Below are positions 18,625 through 26,474 of a DNA stretch of 64,000 nucleotides, in pieces (within the stretch, counting starts at the first letter, position 1; each line of letters begins with the position of its first letter). Location: positions 1 to 64,000 of the forward strand of contig JAEUWI010000030.1 of the NCBI GenBank assembly GCA_016791475.1, read 5' to 3'. The DNA is from Candidatus Hydrogenedentota bacterium (lineage in GTDB: Bacteria > Hydrogenedentota > Hydrogenedentia > Hydrogenedentales > JAEUWI01). Position numbers and translations under genes: made by a program. A model generated the notes under the pieces. The model ran no database searches. It was not told the origin of the DNA and saw only the letters and a list, made by a program, of their open reading frames with translations.

Positions 18625-18694
18625 GGGGCGGTCCCGAGTATTCAGAAGATATTTTTCAAATTGTGAGTGTATATTGCAGAGCAGGAGAATACCA

Positions 18695-19795
18695 GTGCCC
18701 CTCTACGAAATGACCGCTGACACCTTTCGTCCGATAGCTCAGGCTTCGTTTGCCGATCTCAGGATACGAGAGCGGGGAGATCTCCAACGTTTGCTTCGCA
18801 CTCAGATCGAGGTGCTTGGGGATGACCTCTATGTGCTCACGGAAGAATTTGGCGACTGGGAGGATAGTCGACGTAGAATTGACCTGCTCGCCATAGATCG
18901 TCAGGCCAATCTGGTCGTGCTCGAGTTGAAGCGAACCAATGACGGCGGACATATGGACCTGCAGGCTATCCGCTACGCGAGCATGGTGTCCGCCATGACT
19001 TTTGAACGGGCGGCTCAGATCCATGGAGAGTTCCTGACTCGTATTGGAGAAGTCGCAGTCGAAGCGCGCGAGCGTATGTTGGCCTTTTTGGGATGGGATG
19101 ATCCGGACGAGGAGAATTTTGCACCCGATGTTCGGATATTGCTGGTGTCAGAGGACTTTGGGAAGGAACTGACAACAGCGGTACTCTGGCTCCGGGAACG
19201 CGATATTGACATCCGTTGCGTGCGCCTTAGGCCCTATCTGGATGGGGAATCAAGATTAATCGATGTCCAGCAAATCATACCCCTTCCCGAGGCGCAAGAG
19301 TATCAAGTGCAACTCCGCGAGAAGGAGCAAGCCGGGCGCAAGGTGCGGGTAGAGAAGAGCAACGAGTTCAGCCGATTCTGGGCGGGCCTACTGGTGCTCG
19401 CGCGGGAGCGCCAGACGCGCCACGCGCATCTGAAGCCGGGGACGCAACACTGGATTGGTACCACGTCGGGTATTCGTGGTCTAGTGTTCAACTATATCAT
19501 TGTGCGTGGCTACGGGGCCGTCGAGCTATACATTGATCGGGGTGATGGCGACGAGAACAAATTGATATTCGACCGGCTTCACATGCTGAAGCCGGAGATC
19601 GAGGGGCGTTTCGGAACGCAGCTTTCGTGGGAAAGGTTGGACGCGCGGCGGGGTTGCCGGATTAAGTACAGCCTTGATTTGGGAGGCTATCGGATTCCCG
19701 AGGTGGAGTGGACTGCATTGCAGTCAGCCATGATCGAGGCGATGGCGCGGCTGGAGGCGGCATTGAAGCCTGCCTTGGATTCACTCGACCTGTAG
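18695..19795 (+). CDS. PD-(D/E)XK nuclease-like protein with DUF91 and DUF4268 domains
   Basis: This 366-residue protein has an N-terminal domain like DUF91/NucS-type nucleases. SRRRIDLLAIDRQANLVVLELKR carries the acidic and E-x-K residues expected of a PD-(D/E)XK active site, and the following helix contains DLQAIRYASMVSAM. The C-terminal ~140 residues (FWAGLLVLARERQTRHAHLKP and on) resemble DUF4268. The combination is widespread, often in mobile or defence regions, and its activity is not well established. GTG 18695 is preferred over TTG 18674 because AGGAGA stands 8 bases before it. It marks the left edge of the variable island. Confidence 0.78.
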   Translation: MPLYEMTADTFRPIAQASFADLRIRERGDLQRLLRTQIEVLGDDLYVLTEEFGDWEDSRRRIDLLAIDRQANLVVLELKRTNDGGHMDLQAIRYASMVSAMTFERAAQIHGEFLTRIGEVAVEARERMLAFLGWDDPDEENFAPDVRILLVSEDFGKELTTAVLWLRERDIDIRCVRLRPYLDGESRLIDVQQIIPLPEAQEYQVQLREKEQAGRKVRVEKSNEFSRFWAGLLVLARERQTRHAHLKPGTQHWIGTTSGIRGLVFNYIIVRGYGAVELYIDRGDGDENKLIFDRLHMLKPEIEGRFGTQLSWERLDARRGCRIKYSLDLGGYRIPEVEWTALQSAMIEAMARLEAALKPALDSLDL

Positions 19796-19810: not shown

Positions 19811-19976
19811 CTCGTTCCCAAGCTCCGCTTGGGAATGCCGTCCCCGGAGCTCTGCTCCGCTGCGATTGTGGCGTTGAATTGTGCGTTGAACAATGCACGT
19901 GATCGTCGGATACGTCACCGCCACTGGCGAAGCGGAGCTTCGAGACCTGCATTCCCAAGCGGAGCTTGGGAACGAG
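19811..19976. repeat. 166-bp element with perfect 27-bp inverted ends
   Basis: The left end CTCGTTCCCAAGCTCCGCTT and seven further bases (19811-19837) is the exact reverse complement of 19950-19976. Each arm is itself a palindrome (TTCCCAAGC...GCTTGGGAA). The interior has further GGAGC/GCTCC pairs. Size and ends suggest a MITE or REP-derived element without coding capacity. Confidence 0.85.
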
Positions 19977-20260: not shown

Positions 20261-20440
20261 ATGAGTAGTGATTATAAACCCACGTCGCGCAGGCCGATTG
20301 CAGGGTTTTTCCGTAGCATGGCGGGCGGTTCGGTTCGTTGGTGCGTCCGTTGGGATGTGCACCCGAACACGATTTCCTATCTAGTTTCTGTGTCGAATAG
20401 CCGTTTCTGGCGCATCCTTCGGAGTTTTTCTCATTCCTAG
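20261..20440 (+). pseudogene. 5' fragment of a CDP-alcohol phosphatidyltransferase gene cut by an IS
   Basis: From ATG 20261 the frame reads MSSDYKPTSRRPIAGFF and continues to DVHPNTISYL, which resembles the N-terminus of CDP-alcohol phosphatidyltransferases (RRPIA block, then a V/I-x-PNTISxLS helix start). At 20381-20384 the insertion sequence begins and the frame runs only 19 more codons into the IS before TAG at 20438-20440. The catalytic CDP-alcohol motif, which lies further on in this family, is lost. Known members make phospholipid head groups. The assignment rests on about 40 residues, so family is likely but subtype unknown. Confidence 0.6.
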
Positions 20441-22038
20441 TTCAGTGTAGCTCTTCTGGATGGCGTCCATAATGCTGCATTTCGTCATCGAACGTCGATT
20501 TCCGACGCCTCGGGACGCATCCCTCCGTCGCCCCGCGTTAACCATTCAAAATCGAAGCCGATTTTCTATGTCTCTGCGAGCAGAACGAGGTTGTGGCAGA
20601 ACACCGCACAGCCCACGCTCGACGCAAAATTCTTATAACCCTTAAAAAGGCATCGATTCAGCTTGAAGGCGCGTTTTAACACGGATATCGTCCCTTCGAC
20701 ACCGGCGCGGAAGGCTTGGCCTGCCTTGAACTCTTCACCGTGCTCTCGCTCTTCCTCTTTCTTGGTCCGCCGGCCCTTCTTGCAGATGGATACGGTCGTG
20801 ATCTTCTTCTCAAGCCCTTTCAGTTGTTCGACACTCGCATAGAATCCTTTGTCGGCAGCAAGCGTGTCGGGTAGCTTGCCGAACAAGGAGCGATGGGCCT
20901 CGAGCGTCGCCTCCAAGAGGTCTTTGTCCTCCTCGCGCTCCGGCATCACTTTGTAGTGGGTGATGAACTTCTCGCCCGTCTGAGCGATCAACACCTTATG
21001 ACCAAACTCGACCGGCTTCCCGGCCTTGCCCCGCTTCAAGAGTTCGGTGTGCTCCTCAAAGAGGCTGTAGACCTTCTCGTTCGAAGGAACAATCTCGCCA
21101 TCGAATATGCGGCGCTGGGCCTGGTCGACGATTCGCTCGGCGACGGGGGTGTACAGGACAAGTTCCGACACCTCAAGGATTGCGTGCGCGAATAGCTTTT
21201 GAACTTCGTTGCTGATCCCGGCAATCCACGCCACCCGCTCTATGAGGAGTCGATAAGTGCGTTTCACCTGTCGCTGCGTTGCCTTGCTGCGGCTCTTGGC
21301 GTTGCGGGCGATGTAGAAGGCGAGTTTCTTGACCTTTTTGTCGTGGTAGCGGTGCGTAAGGCCCAATTTCGGGCACGCCTTTTGAAGGCGGCGCAGCGTA
21401 CGGCACAGAACCCGGAAACTGTCCCACAAGAGCGAAGAATCGGTGGGGTAGTGAATATTGGACTCATACGCCGTCGAGTCCGTGCGCAACTTCTCGCCAC
21501 TGATCCACGCCTTCTTCTTCGCGTGCCGCGCCAACGACTGGTTCACCGCATGCCAGGTTTCCCCTGACAACGCGGCAAAAGCCTTGCCCACAAAGGAAAA
21601 ATCCATCATCGGCTTCGCGAAACCCAGCCCCACGAAGCTGCGTAGGAAATCACTATTCTCGATCCGAACCACCACGTCCCGGTAACTGTCCTGCTCCACA
21701 AACATCACCACCAGGCATCGTAGAATCTCTTCAGAAGTATAACCGCTGCAACGGCCCTTTTCAGAAGTCGAGAGCCATCGGCAGAAATCCGAATGCACCA
21801 AATCAAGCACCGCCGGGTTCGCCAGCAACAGCGCATTGATGGACCCGTACTTCTTGCGGTACGACGCCACCACTTTCGTCGGGCTTGACGGAAGCTCAAA
21901 ATCCAGGTAAATTTGACGCACAGTCTTCATTCGCATGGCCTGCTCCTTTCTGTGATTGCCGTCACAGATGTTTTGTCCAAAGGGAGTAGGCCATTCGTTT
22001 ATCATTTTGTCAATTCAGCTTTCCGCCACAGAAACTAG
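20381..22038 (-). mobile_element. Insertion sequence with CTAG at both ends
   Basis: Terminal inverted repeats run 20385-20403 (TTTCTGTGTCGAATAGCCG) and 22016-22034 (its complement with 4 mismatches in 19). CTAG stands immediately outside each end (20381-20384, 22035-22038), the expected short target duplication for IS5-like elements. The element is 1650 bp between the CTAG copies and has one intact transposase gene on the minus strand. The genes on either side do not belong together: a CDP-alcohol phosphatidyltransferase start lies on the left and an hsdS end on the right. Confidence 0.88.
20566..21936 (-). CDS. DDE transposase (IS5/ISNCY-like)
   Basis: This 456-residue transposase is complete. 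Catalytic residues fit a DDE pattern: Asp in LRTDSTAYESNIHYPTDSS, Asp in TLAADKGFY and Glu in AGVEGTISVLKR. N-terminal residues 30-110 include an alpha-helical DUF772-like region (YTSEEILRCLVVMFVEQDSY). EFGHKVLIAQTGEKFI and a C-terminal helical tail GCAVFCHNLVLLAE follow. ATG 21936 was chosen for AAGGAG 10 bases upstream; the open frame extends further upstream without support. I cannot fix the IS family more closely than IS5/ISNCY-type from memory. Confidence 0.88.
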   Translation of the reverse strand: MRMKTVRQIYLDFELPSSPTKVVASYRKKYGSINALLLANPAVLDLVHSDFCRWLSTSEKGRCSGYTSEEILRCLVVMFVEQDSYRDVVVRIENSDFLRSFVGLGFAKPMMDFSFVGKAFAALSGETWHAVNQSLARHAKKKAWISGEKLRTDSTAYESNIHYPTDSSLLWDSFRVLCRTLRRLQKACPKLGLTHRYHDKKVKKLAFYIARNAKSRSKATQRQVKRTYRLLIERVAWIAGISNEVQKLFAHAILEVSELVLYTPVAERIVDQAQRRIFDGEIVPSNEKVYSLFEEHTELLKRGKAGKPVEFGHKVLIAQTGEKFITHYKVMPEREEDKDLLEATLEAHRSLFGKLPDTLAADKGFYASVEQLKGLEKKITTVSICKKGRRTKKEEEREHGEEFKAGQAFRAGVEGTISVLKRAFKLNRCLFKGYKNFASSVGCAVFCHNLVLLAET

Positions 22039-22187
22039 TTAACGCCGTTGATCGCGAGACCGGGCACTACGACCGCTTCCGGGCCAAAATCGAGGGGTCA
22101 CTTGATACGGTGAACGAATACCGGAACGTGTTGATATCGGGGGTGGTGACAGGGAAGATTGATGTACGTGAGGCGAAGCACTACTAG
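22039..22187 (+). pseudogene. hsdS: 3' remnant of a type I restriction specificity gene (hsdS)
   Basis: Directly after the IS the plus strand reads VDRETGHYDRFRAKIEG and then TVNEYRNVLISGVVTGKIDV before TAG at 22185-22187. This is the C-terminal coiled coil and tail of HsdS (typical form: DRET..ID.LI.KIE..I..LKEYR.ALIS.AVTGKIDVRE). Only about 48 codons remain; both target-recognition domains are gone. No hsdM or full hsdR remains nearby. The following gene begins 13 bases later and was presumably cotranscribed with hsdS. Confidence 0.85.
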
Positions 22188-22199
22188 GGGATTGATGAA

Positions 22200-23450
22200 A
22201 TGGATACGAAAGCACAAGGCGCTTGGATAATTCATCACGCTGGCAAGCTCGAAGAGTACGGCACCAGTGCAGGAATGGATAACTTGCGGAAAGCCGGAAA
22301 TTGCGGAGTGCTGCTCTCGGCCCTCTCAGCAAGCGACGAACAAAATCAGCTGAGTAACGAAAAGGTGCGGACGCTCGCAGAGGTTGCTGGCCTTGACCTT
22401 ACGTATCAACTCCCCGCCTTATTAGAAACACTCAAAGACCATGCGTTGATCGATTTGGGACAAAACTCCATCGAGGTGCTTGGGCTGACAACTCGGACTG
22501 TTCTAGAGCACACCGGTAACATTTTCAACCATTTGGATCCTAAACCCATTGAAATCGCCTCCCTTGATGCCGCGGAACTCTGTTCACAAGCCCCACGAAC
22601 CGATGTCGAGTTGGGCAAGTATCTGAGCAATCAGTACCACCTTGCGAGAAAGGATGTTAATCAGTTAATAGAGACGGTCGAAACATACAAGCTTTGCGAC
22701 ATGGAGCCTCTGGATAGTTTAAATAAGCTCTACTTCAACGGCGCATTGTTTCGCGGTGATCACGTAAAGAAGGCGAAAGCCGTTTTGGATTCATTGACGG
22801 CAGTCGATCGAACAAACGTTCAGAGTGTCGATCAACTATTGACTGCCGAAGGGTGTATCGAGAAGAAGATTGCTGTGCAGACGCTCGGAGTTAAGCTTTT
22901 CAAGAAGTTGCAGTCAATCGGCATGTATGACGTAAATACCGTCAGCAACAACAGAGAGACTGTCGAATACATTACGCGGCCATCGGCCTTCAATAAGTTT
23001 GGACGTAGCGACATCTCTGATGCGTTCGATCTGGCCAAGGCATTCGTAGCTTCGCTCGAATACGGGATGAGTCGTAGTGCGTCCGGTCGCGGGCGGATCG
23101 TCTTTTTGAAGCAGCTTATGGAAAAGCTCATTGCGGGTAGTGCAATAGGACCATGCACGGCGATCGGTCAAGATTATAGAGTGTTGGAGCTTCGTGGTGT
23201 GGTCCAAGTTATCCCGACACGGGGCCAAATGTTTTCAATGCGGCTCCTAAAACGAGATATTGGAAAGTTAGCTCTTCAGGTCCTTCAATCAGGAGATGCC
23301 AGCGATCAGTCCCTCACGGTGCTCCCTGGATCGCCGTTGAATGCGTATAGTGGCCCCGAATACAATCGCGTCCAAGCTCGCAAACAGGCTCATGCTGAAA
23401 AAATAGATGTCCGTCAAGCGCTTGAAACCCTCCGAACCACGAGCCTTTAA
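22200..23450 (+). CDS. Unknown protein with probable winged-helix segment, first gene of a two-gene module
   Basis: I do not recognise the family of this 416-residue protein. It begins MDTKAQGAWIIHHAGKLE. Residues about 60-105 (LSNEKVRTLAEVAGLDLTYQ, then LPALLETLKDHALIDLG and a strand-like SIEVLGLT) look like a winged helix-turn-helix. A second similar helical unit may lie near 195-240. The rest is predicted mixed alpha/beta without membrane segments. The start has AGGGG nine bases upstream. The next gene begins within 14 bases of its stop, so the two are coupled. It lies 13 bases after the hsdS remnant, suggesting it was once an accessory gene of a type I restriction locus. DNA binding is inference from helix pattern alone. 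Confidence 0.7.
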   Translation: MDTKAQGAWIIHHAGKLEEYGTSAGMDNLRKAGNCGVLLSALSASDEQNQLSNEKVRTLAEVAGLDLTYQLPALLETLKDHALIDLGQNSIEVLGLTTRTVLEHTGNIFNHLDPKPIEIASLDAAELCSQAPRTDVELGKYLSNQYHLARKDVNQLIETVETYKLCDMEPLDSLNKLYFNGALFRGDHVKKAKAVLDSLTAVDRTNVQSVDQLLTAEGCIEKKIAVQTLGVKLFKKLQSIGMYDVNTVSNNRETVEYITRPSAFNKFGRSDISDAFDLAKAFVASLEYGMSRSASGRGRIVFLKQLMEKLIAGSAIGPCTAIGQDYRVLELRGVVQVIPTRGQMFSMRLLKRDIGKLALQVLQSGDASDQSLTVLPGSPLNAYSGPEYNRVQARKQAHAEKIDVRQALETLRTTSL

Positions 23451-23463
23451 GGAGTAAATGGCG

Positions 23464-24495
23464 ATGGGAGATAAAGGAAATCTCAAAGGTGCGAGGGCCG
23501 AAGAGGCGATCCGCAATGTTTTTTTGCATGCGGGTTACTATGTTGTGCGAGCACTGCCCTACAAATTTAAAGATCGTGATGTAACGGATATCGACCTTTG
23601 GCTCTATGGCAAGAGTGGGTTGTTCCGAGAGCGTGTCAATGTCGATATTAAGAACAAGAAGACTCCGCAGGCTATAGAGCGATTCTTCTGGGCATTGGGG
23701 GTGATGCACGTGCTCCGATTGGATAGATGTATCGTCGTAACGACGGAGAGCAATCCAGCTGTTGTTGAGTTTGGCAGACGCAGCAATGTAGCTGTTATCG
23801 ATGGTCAGTACCTGCACGATGCCCAAGCCATGCCAGATGCGAGTCGCCTGTCGGAGGAGCAGTTGTTCTCAGCTTTGCAACCGATTGGTGCTGAGGAGCT
23901 GGGCAAGGAACTCCTTGGGAGGTATCACTCGGCCAAGGCTCGTCTTCTGACACATATGACGTTTGATGGGTGCAATCTACATATTGTTGATATCAGGAAA
24001 TGCTTTGAGGAACTAATCGCCTATCCGGGAGTTCAAGATGCGATTCGTCGAGTGCTCTATGCCACCTTAAGCTATTTGGCGGTAACAGTGGACTTCCTTG
24101 CCGTGAAGATGGAATTCACGGACTTCGAGCGACGGCAGCACACCATTGAGACAGGGTTTCGTTATGGGACTGCCGGACGCAATCGTCTCGATGAGTTTGG
24201 CAAAGTGCTAGACTTGTGTAAAAGGCCGGATAGGCCAGAAGATTCCAATGTGATATCTCAGATCGTCAAGAGTTTAAAAGTTGAGGCGGGCAATCTGCGC
24301 GCCGATATTATTGCGGAGTTTATGACGAAGCAGCTTGCTGGATACGGATTGTTCAAATTAGCAGTACAACTGGAATCGCAAGCATTTGCTATAAGCTGTT
24401 CGCCTATTGTAGAGCTCCCGACCGAGTTGAAATCGTTTGTTCTGGTACTTGCCGACTTCTTTGGAATTGAACGCACAAAGGTGTTAGCGTGTTAG
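23464..24495 (+). CDS. PD-(D/E)XK-like nuclease domain protein, second gene of the module
   Basis: This 343-residue protein has an N-terminal domain (about residues 1-125) with the order of a restriction-endonuclease-like fold. A helix with Glu (KGARAEEAIRNVFLHAGYYV) leads to Asp residues in DRDVTDIDLWLYG, then a strand with an acidic residue, x and Lys in NVDIKNKKTPQAIERFFWA, and a following helix. RCIVVTTESNPAVVEFGRR fits the last strand. Residues 150-343 are helical and unrecognised. Two starts exist: ATG 23458 and ATG 23464; AAGGAG overlapping the upstream stop is better spaced for 23464. I infer a DNA-cleaving or DNA-binding role together with the preceding gene. Confidence 0.68.
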   Translation: MGDKGNLKGARAEEAIRNVFLHAGYYVVRALPYKFKDRDVTDIDLWLYGKSGLFRERVNVDIKNKKTPQAIERFFWALGVMHVLRLDRCIVVTTESNPAVVEFGRRSNVAVIDGQYLHDAQAMPDASRLSEEQLFSALQPIGAEELGKELLGRYHSAKARLLTHMTFDGCNLHIVDIRKCFEELIAYPGVQDAIRRVLYATLSYLAVTVDFLAVKMEFTDFERRQHTIETGFRYGTAGRNRLDEFGKVLDLCKRPDRPEDSNVISQIVKSLKVEAGNLRADIIAEFMTKQLAGYGLFKLAVQLESQAFAISCSPIVELPTELKSFVLVLADFFGIERTKVLAC

Positions 24496-24529
24496 GTGAT
24501 ATCACAGACGTGAGTGAAGGAGCGCAATA

Positions 24530-24601
24530 ATGCCGAACCCGCACACCGAAAATACTCTCGAATCCGCTTTTACATCTAGCTTAAAGCCCGCAGGCAAGTG
24601 A
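24530..24601 (+). pseudogene. 23-codon remnant with strong ribosome site (possible gene start fragment)
   Basis: AAGGAG eight bases upstream drives a frame MPNPHTENTLESAFTSSLKP that ends after 23 codons. It overlaps the next start (GTGA). The opening, TENTLE with a helical continuation, is reminiscent of the beginning of type I restriction R subunits, but this is too short to be sure. It may be a leader peptide for the next frame instead. Confidence 0.35.
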
Positions 24602-25510: not shown

Positions 25511-26335
25511 TTAATAGATGGCTGCCTCGATGATTTTCTTTTCTTCGGTAGTGATGGGCCTGAATTTCATGCTATCCACGTACTGCCACAAGTCATCGCG
25601 GGCCGGAAGCTTATGGAGTTCACGTAGTTGACTAAGGTGCCACGTTAACTCTAACTGGCTTGCTTCATTTGACGCAACTTTCTGGTCCACTTTGCTCGCT
25701 ATATCGAATGCAGCATCCAAGTATTTAACTAACTGGTCCCACGACAAGGAAATATATTCTCCTAGCTCAATTCCGATATCTGGAATGTCCCGAAGTACTT
25801 TGGGGGTAACAACTCCTCCATTGTGAGCCGCTGCGCAACGTAGCTTGAAAGCATCGGTCCATTCGGTTCTTTGCTGGTCAAGCGAAATTCCGAGGAGAAT
25901 CTCTACATACTTCAGCATATCCGGAATCGTCGAGCTTCGCAGAACTGGACTACCCAATGCTTTTCCTACAGCGTTTAATTCATATGGTCCGTTGCAATGA
26001 CCGAGGTTTCCAATATGTATCGTCACCGCTTCTTCGAGATAGGACTCAAGCGACGCGGCTGCCATGACAAGCATGTTGAGACGAAACGCGTTTTCTCTAC
26101 CTTCAAGTTGATCCCACATTTCGGAGACGGTTTCAGCAAACCTTTTTAGAGCAAATGGTGGCGGCACGTGGCTGGAAACGAGAGCGTCGGGAGCGGCTTG
26201 ATCTAGTGACAGTCGTAGGTTGTGAGTTGCGAGCTGATGAAACCAGTAGTTTCCACTCAGAGCCGCATGTTTAGCGCGGTACCGTCGGAACGACAGTGTG
26301 GGCCACCATTTGTTGTTAGATGCGGCAATATTCAT
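25511..26335 (-). CDS. HEPN-like domain protein
   Basis: This 274-residue protein has a helical domain resembling RiboL-PSP/MAE-type HEPN domains. The helix LNMLVMAAASLESYLEEAV is followed about 90 residues later by FKLRCAAAHNGGVVTPKVL, which carries the Arg-x4-His motif of HEPN ribonucleases in the usual VHN-x-G-x-V context. HEPN proteins often act as RNases in abortive-infection or toxin systems. No nucleotidyltransferase partner is adjacent, so a solitary role is likely. ATG 26335 is favoured over 26341 by the spacing from GGAG. GC content is lower than in the core genes, in line with acquisition. Confidence 0.65.
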   Translation of the reverse strand: MNIAASNNKWWPTLSFRRYRAKHAALSGNYWFHQLATHNLRLSLDQAAPDALVSSHVPPPFALKRFAETVSEMWDQLEGRENAFRLNMLVMAAASLESYLEEAVTIHIGNLGHCNGPYELNAVGKALGSPVLRSSTIPDMLKYVEILLGISLDQQRTEWTDAFKLRCAAAHNGGVVTPKVLRDIPDIGIELGEYISLSWDQLVKYLDAAFDIASKVDQKVASNEASQLELTWHLSQLRELHKLPARDDLWQYVDSMKFRPITTEEKKIIEAAIY

Positions 26336-26474
26336 CAGCATGTCTCCACTAGAAGTGGACCCTATAGATTGGACACTGGATCGGGTTTCCTAAGTGTATC
26401 CTGTTTGGGATTAAGCTGAAGCCCATATTTGGGAGTTCAAGCCGTGGTATTAGAAATTATGTGGAGATATCTTT

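Follow-up and report, generated by a model that had tools for sequence, protein, structure and literature searches.

The window (the whole stretch of DNA that was analysed, 64,000 nt in length) contains the remains of a type I restriction operon, in which two intact ORFs, here called genes A and B, lie between a 3′ remnant of hsdS and the first codons of hsdR, all on the forward strand. The remnant comprises the last ~48 codons of hsdS (22041-22187). It begins NAVDRETGHYDRF, ends SGVVTGKIDVREAKHY before its stop codon, and matches the HsdS C-termini of relatives, with 45-50% identity to the C-terminus of intact HsdS (E 5e-7 to 4e-6; three genomes of the same taxonomic order). Gene A (22200-23450, 416 aa) starts 12 nt past the hsdS stop. 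Gene B (23458-24495) encodes 345 aa, or 343 aa from the ATG at 23464, with a predicted PD-(D/E)XK nuclease domain and a helical C-terminal domain. The sequence AAGGAG (23449-23454) overlaps the stop codon of gene A and sits nine bases ahead of the ATG at 23464; because this spacing is the better one, the second ATG is probably the start of gene B. The first 23 codons of hsdR follow (24530-24601, MPNPHTENTLESAFTSSLKPAGK and a stop) with the ribosome site GAAGGAG, while the body of the gene is missing. This short ORF aligns with the HsdR start of relatives (MPGQHTEQAFETAIEEYL in G008 and G009; MARRHTEQAFEHAIEEHL in G014), and its score against that of G008 is 25, compared with a maximum of 9 among shuffled sequences (0/2,000 higher). 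From the alignment and the shuffle test, it is a genuine HsdR start.

An XRE-ImmA pseudogene with in-frame stops (24598 to about 25279, forward strand) comes next, of a type found intact in the hsd operons of relatives. What we take to be XRE-ImmA and PIN-type genes, here and below, were named from sequence and from knowledge of such operons, and capP/RmrA profile support for the ImmA-type assignment was weak. An insertion sequence upstream (20378-22041, reverse strand) is bounded by CTAG at each end and has inverted repeats of 24 nt (20378-20401 and 22018-22041); its right end abuts the hsdS remnant, exactly at the first base of the remnant. Its DDE transposase ORF (20566-22005; Pfam DDE_Tnp_1, E=2.3e-7) is intact. 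An earlier reading, made from sequence alone, had described an hsdS remnant, two intact unknown genes and a 23-codon hsdR-like ORF, and all of these are present; its view that everything around the two genes had decayed is slightly too strong, because the upstream element keeps an intact transposase ORF.

Other features of the window lie outside the operon. A 373-aa ORF (18674-19795), near recF-like and DUF721-like genes, has a C-terminal DUF4268 domain (Pfam E 1e-26) and a D...ELK pattern (RRIDLLAIDRQANLVVLELKR), and is possibly a second nuclease, unrelated to gene B. At 19811-19976 there is a 50-nt inverted repeat, 86% complementary, with arms 66 nt apart and TTCCCAAGCTCCGCTTGGGAA-type palindromes; its translation in several frames gives FPSGAWE-like peptides, and it may belong to a family of repeats dispersed through this genome. 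A 276-aa ORF (25511-26341, reverse strand), immediately downstream of the decayed restriction locus, has no Pfam match.

The interval between hsdS and hsdR is variable among the type I operons of relatives. In G014 (L101), hsdR directly follows hsdS and the slot is empty. In G008 (L098), three genes separate them (one of 404 aa, an XRE-ImmA gene and one of PIN type), and in G047 (L104) the interval holds four: XRE-ImmA, one of PIN type and two further genes. As the slot of relatives is either empty or differently filled, the A-B pair of the window is best seen as cargo. Two unknown cargo genes of these related operons, the 404-aa gene (L098:1706-2920, after hsdS) and a 341-aa gene located between hsdM and hsdS (L099:2357-3382), are without Pfam matches. 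The same hsdS-A-B position as in the window was found in Sulfurimonas (L018), where the order is hsdM-hsdS-A-B-Lamassu-like genes-Fic-hsdR. The packing of Lamassu-like genes and Fic (L018:10391-14939) with A-B in one hsdMS...R operon makes this a very dense defence stack. Genes similar to hsdR occur no more than 8 kb from the pair in L020, L069 and L080, while no hsd gene was found in the available flanks at most non-redundant A-B loci. Most copies are therefore away from hsd genes, and the hsd operon is only one of several homes.

Neither A nor B has a family match in Pfam, NCBIfam, PADLOC, PHROG or PDB sequences; even up to E 10, no family of PADLOC 2.0.0 (2023) was matched by either protein, and neither was matched by the HsdM, HsdS and HsdR profiles of PADLOC and Pfam. 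Placement in known housekeeping families, which would have counted against the sequence-only reading, was not supported: profile searches gave no significant library match, nor did profiles built from 8 and about 50 members.

Profile scans detected at least 62 genome loci and at least 10 viral-contig loci, these being lower bounds since the scan relied on one short pattern. At every locus with enough downstream DNA, B comes directly after A on the same strand (the available sequence of L043 and L048 stops inside or just past gene A). The two genes overlap by 4 nt in 25/61 non-redundant loci and by 1 nt in a further 18, and both are intact in nearly all full-length copies. A scan of viral contigs with B alone gave no contig beyond those already found with A. 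The trees of A and B are strongly correlated (patristic r = 0.91 for 54 loci; 0.82 for the main clade of 39 loci), a level that was reached by 0/1,000 permutations. A-B is thus a real, conserved module of two genes that are obligately paired.

The module is patchily distributed over more than 12 phyla. Copies were found in Pseudomonadota, Bacteroidota, Bacillota, Actinomycetota, Planctomycetota, Cyanobacteriota, Campylobacterota, Nitrospirota, Gemmatimonadota, Acidobacteriota, Myxococcota, Thermodesulfobacteriota, Chloroflexota and Chlamydiota, and in a Lokiarchaeota bin. These assignments were taken from record titles, partly via organism names, and bins may contain foreign contigs. Translated searches located A and B together on Vibrio and Mesorhizobium plasmids, and A followed by a B-family gene on plasmids of Rubrobacter and on three other actinobacterial plasmids. 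Only one of the 68 genomes of the phylum to which the window belongs carries A-B, so vertical inheritance was rejected; none of the three other genomes of the genus has it. The patchy distribution, and the plasmid, element and prophage homes of the pair, support a rare module that is exchanged among bacteria of many phyla.

The AlphaFold2 model of gene B is confident (pLDDT 92.8, pTM 0.91). Model and conservation together delimit a nuclease domain at residues 6-124 (23473-23829), in which the model shows the core order alpha-beta-beta-beta-alpha-beta (H6-24, E28-37, E40-53, E56-64, H71-85, E90-94). It is followed by an all-helical C-terminal domain at residues 133-344 (23854-24489). The predicted active site, from conservation, model and alignment, consists of E15 (23500), D44 (23587), D46 (23593), D63 (23644), K65 (23650) and R75 (23680). 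Across 60 non-redundant homologues, some as low as 13-17% in identity to the window protein, E15, D44, D46, K65 and R75 are invariant, as are G11, G26, G81 and G237, while position 63 is D in 51/60 and E in the remaining 9. All of the invariant residues are kept in the window copy. This is strong evidence for an active site under selection, from which cleavage itself is inferred.

Foldseek searches of the PDB with the gene B model returned MspJI (E 0.012, probability 1.00), EcoT38I, Card1, a Pyrococcus repair endonuclease, AspBHI, VC1899, EndoMS and BamHI, with probabilities of 0.98-1.00 for MspJI, EcoT38I, Card1, AspBHI and EndoMS. The E-values are weak (0.012 at best), the matches cover the nuclease domain alone, and whole-length TM-scores are low. 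At the level of the modelled fold, and by its conserved acidic/acidic-x-Lys site, gene B belongs to the PD-(D/E)XK superfamily; metal-dependent cleavage is inferred. It resembles MspJI, AspBHI, EcoT38I and Mrr-like nucleases in its core fold and E...D...(D/E)xK site, but it is not a member of these groups at the sequence level, it is always partnered by A, and its second domain is all-helical, without a known DNA-reading domain. The Pfam family Mrr_cat gave weak matches in 2/8 members of the B family, the best (E 0.022) not meeting the gathering cut-off, and none to the window protein. No SRA profile matched A or B, and the fold search for B matched its nuclease part.

Gene A is modelled with lower confidence (pLDDT 81, pTM 0.70) as four winged-helix units in series (residues about 49-95, 113-181, 199-260 and 270-350) and a C-terminal tail. 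The fourth unit (residues 270-350; 23007-23249) holds most of the invariant residues (K280, G289, G298, G317, P318, I322, D325, Y326 and L349), and the conserved tail contains the invariant P386, E387 and R412. Most of the top Foldseek matches have multiple winged helices (Wadjet JetA, RPC62, TFIIIC, SelB and Stn1), while single domains match ArsR, PadR and NolR types with probabilities of 0.85-0.95 and E-values above 0.1. All matches have E-values of at least 0.002, cover single winged helices and have low whole-length TM-scores, and none of them is a family assignment. For Wadjet JetA, RPC62 and TFIIIC, the best of them (E 0.002-0.03), the likeness is one of repeated winged helices alone (TM-scores 0.15-0.17), and no SMC ATPase or other Wadjet partner recurs beside A-B. 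Gene A is therefore predicted, by the model, to consist of four tandem winged helices; binding and recognition of DNA are inferred. In the Dnd and Ssp systems, as in FokI, restriction nucleases are known to be served by proteins that have two to four winged helices (PMC10853773). Like DndG, SspB and the DNA-binding part of FokI (PMC10853773), A-B places several winged helices alongside a restriction-type nuclease and is found in defence islands, but no sequence match between these proteins and gene A was found, and a relationship is not shown. Unlike Dnd- and Ssp-type systems, A-B has no constant HerA/FtsK, ATPase or modification-gene partner.

The sequence-only reading had proposed a PD-(D/E)XK nuclease in B, which finds support in the confident model, canonical core and fold matches to restriction enzymes, and a probable winged helix in A, which has support at the fold level and is extended to four. 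A lack of conservation of the acidic and Lys residues had been set beforehand as refuting the nuclease, and it is not refuted.

The genomic homes of the pair are diverse. A divergent chromosomal copy is carried by 22 of 5,426 E. coli genomes, and no E. coli copy close to the prophage type of L075 was found. The A-B pair of E. coli W2-5 has the accessions WP_023142848 and WP_023142847. Of the three E. coli copies examined, two belong to integrase-bearing elements located at tRNA-Pro or ssrA, and each of the three has ABC-three-component or His-Xaa-Ser cargo nearby. One such element, with A-B and an ABC-three-component system, also encodes a 682-aa unknown protein without a Pfam match (L107:14400-16448). 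In the P2-like prophages L074-L078, A-B lies between the S and R tail-completion genes and a gene that we take, from its sequence, to be a V-type baseplate gene. In P2 this slot is that of orf30, and horizontally acquired genes are on record there, an Old-type exonuclease and a DNA methylase among them (PMC3091744). No match to A was found among 50,697 phage genome records, and the links to phages rest on IMG/VR contigs. In Photobacterium, A-B adjoins TniQ and a Cas8f/5f-type (CRISPR I-F type) protein, and one carrier is a repABC plasmid.

A-B adjoins Gabija genes at three loci and, at two, ATPases of the ABC-three-component type. Neighbours matched PADLOC models for Gabija, Hachiman, Lamassu, IetAS and type I, II, IIG and III restriction; in all, 233 PADLOC families were matched for 137 neighbours and 110 for 128, compared with 67 for 110 control proteins from relatives. 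The control set was not matched to the neighbours, and its 67 families are mostly one helicase, so the enrichment in defence genes is shown only roughly. Clustering of 1,024 flanking ORFs found no companion gene recurring in more than five loci, several of those being near-duplicate prophages, and for several copies on chromosomes, the nearest flanking genes include none that is recognisable as a defence or mobile gene. Mobile and defence-rich contexts, together with a recurring position after hsdS, are shown.

We consider A-B to be a mobile two-gene module that most likely serves, through its nuclease, in defence against invading DNA, phages or plasmids (probability about 0.66); the defence activity and its mechanism are inferred from context. 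In this view, gene A would bind DNA and recognise its structure, sequence or modification on incoming or replicating foreign molecules. It would then either recruit and license B or keep B inactive until invader DNA arrives, after which B, with its nuclease and helical C-terminal domains, would cut the DNA. The overlapping gene order and the two conserved partners fit both A as activator and A as restrainer, and we do not favour one over the other. That DNA is the target, that A and B form a complex, that A is the recogniser, and that defence is the purpose are all inferences. In the window genome, the pair would have arrived as cargo between the hsdS and hsdR genes of a type I operon and would have outlived the operon, which was wrecked by the insertion sequence and deletions. 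The initial suggestion of a self-sufficient pair is supported, as the pair recurs everywhere, mostly without hsd genes. That it once travelled with hsd genes holds in part, the exact hsdS-A-B order being present in Sulfurimonas and most copies elsewhere, and a defence role has the support of genomic context alone, any activity being inferred.

Several alternatives remain, and the probabilities given to them and to the main reading overlap and do not sum to one. A-B could be a toxin-antitoxin or abortive infection system, in which B would be a toxic nuclease silenced by A and freed upon infection or loss of the element, serving element stability in the first place. This is possible, with toxicity and neutralisation inferred, and it overlaps the defence reading if it acts by abortive infection. 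In its favour are the tight overlap of the two genes, the first of which encodes a DNA-binding-type protein, the plasmid and integrative-element homes, and the persistence of the pair in a dead locus, as addiction would produce. Against it, A is much larger than usual antitoxins and is most conserved in its fourth winged helix and tail rather than in a short neutralising segment, and nearly all full-length copies have both genes intact. A special case of the main reading, also possible, is a type IV-like, modification-dependent restriction system, where A or the helical domain of B would read modified phage DNA and B would cut it. MspJI and AspBHI are among the best fold matches of the B nuclease domain, and multi-winged-helix proteins accompany restriction nucleases in Dnd, Ssp and FokI (PMC10853773), but the profile search found no SRA, EVE or other modified-base reader in A or B, and a match to the nuclease core is common to many unrelated families.

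A role as accessory subunits of type I restriction, modulating HsdR or HsdM, is suggested by the hsdS-A-B order of the window and L018 and by the hsdR-like genes near the pairs of L020, L069 and L080. It is very unlikely: hsd neighbours are too few in the available flanks of the non-redundant loci, and the plasmid and prophage copies stand alone. A-B shares its position with the cargo of hsdS-hsdR junctions (window and L018), but neither A nor B is an hsd subunit, and most copies lie elsewhere. An involvement in DNA processing or regulation for the carrier elements (transfer, excision or gene control) would agree with the frequent location of A-B in plasmids, integrative elements and prophages and with the resemblance of A to a multi-domain DNA-binding protein. 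This too is improbable, as the carriers are unrelated (a P2-like prophage, a Tn7-like element with TniQ, E. coli elements, a repABC plasmid and chromosomal hsd operons), the pair is in a cargo position, and the nuclease residues are kept in all carriers.

Turning back to defence as the preferred reading, a bolder version of it, for which we would not quite give even odds, is that A-B is an undescribed and self-sufficient two-gene immune system of more than 12 phyla, in which a four-winged-helix sensor of foreign DNA would directly gate a PD-(D/E)XK nuclease without an ATPase, a methylase or a nucleotide signal. The parts of A-B are of known kinds, while the pair and its families are absent from the libraries and literature searched and are probably undescribed. 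Accessions of the E. coli and Vibrio A and B proteins were absent from the open-access literature searched, and no description of a winged-helix-nuclease pair was found there; supplementary tables (e.g., those of DefensePredictor) were outside the scope of the search, and an earlier mention by accession is possible.

The window illustrates the hsdS-hsdR junction as a cargo slot, of which there are empty, differently filled and decayed examples. Genes for bacterial defence are still found mostly via known partners. Neither gene of A-B has a family in the five libraries, yet the predicted nuclease site is invariant and the partnership of the two genes is strictly conserved. The pair also occurs in E. 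coli and, at 2.3 kb, is small enough to clone. If the pair is protective, it would show that a multi-winged-helix protein alone can direct a nuclease to foreign DNA.
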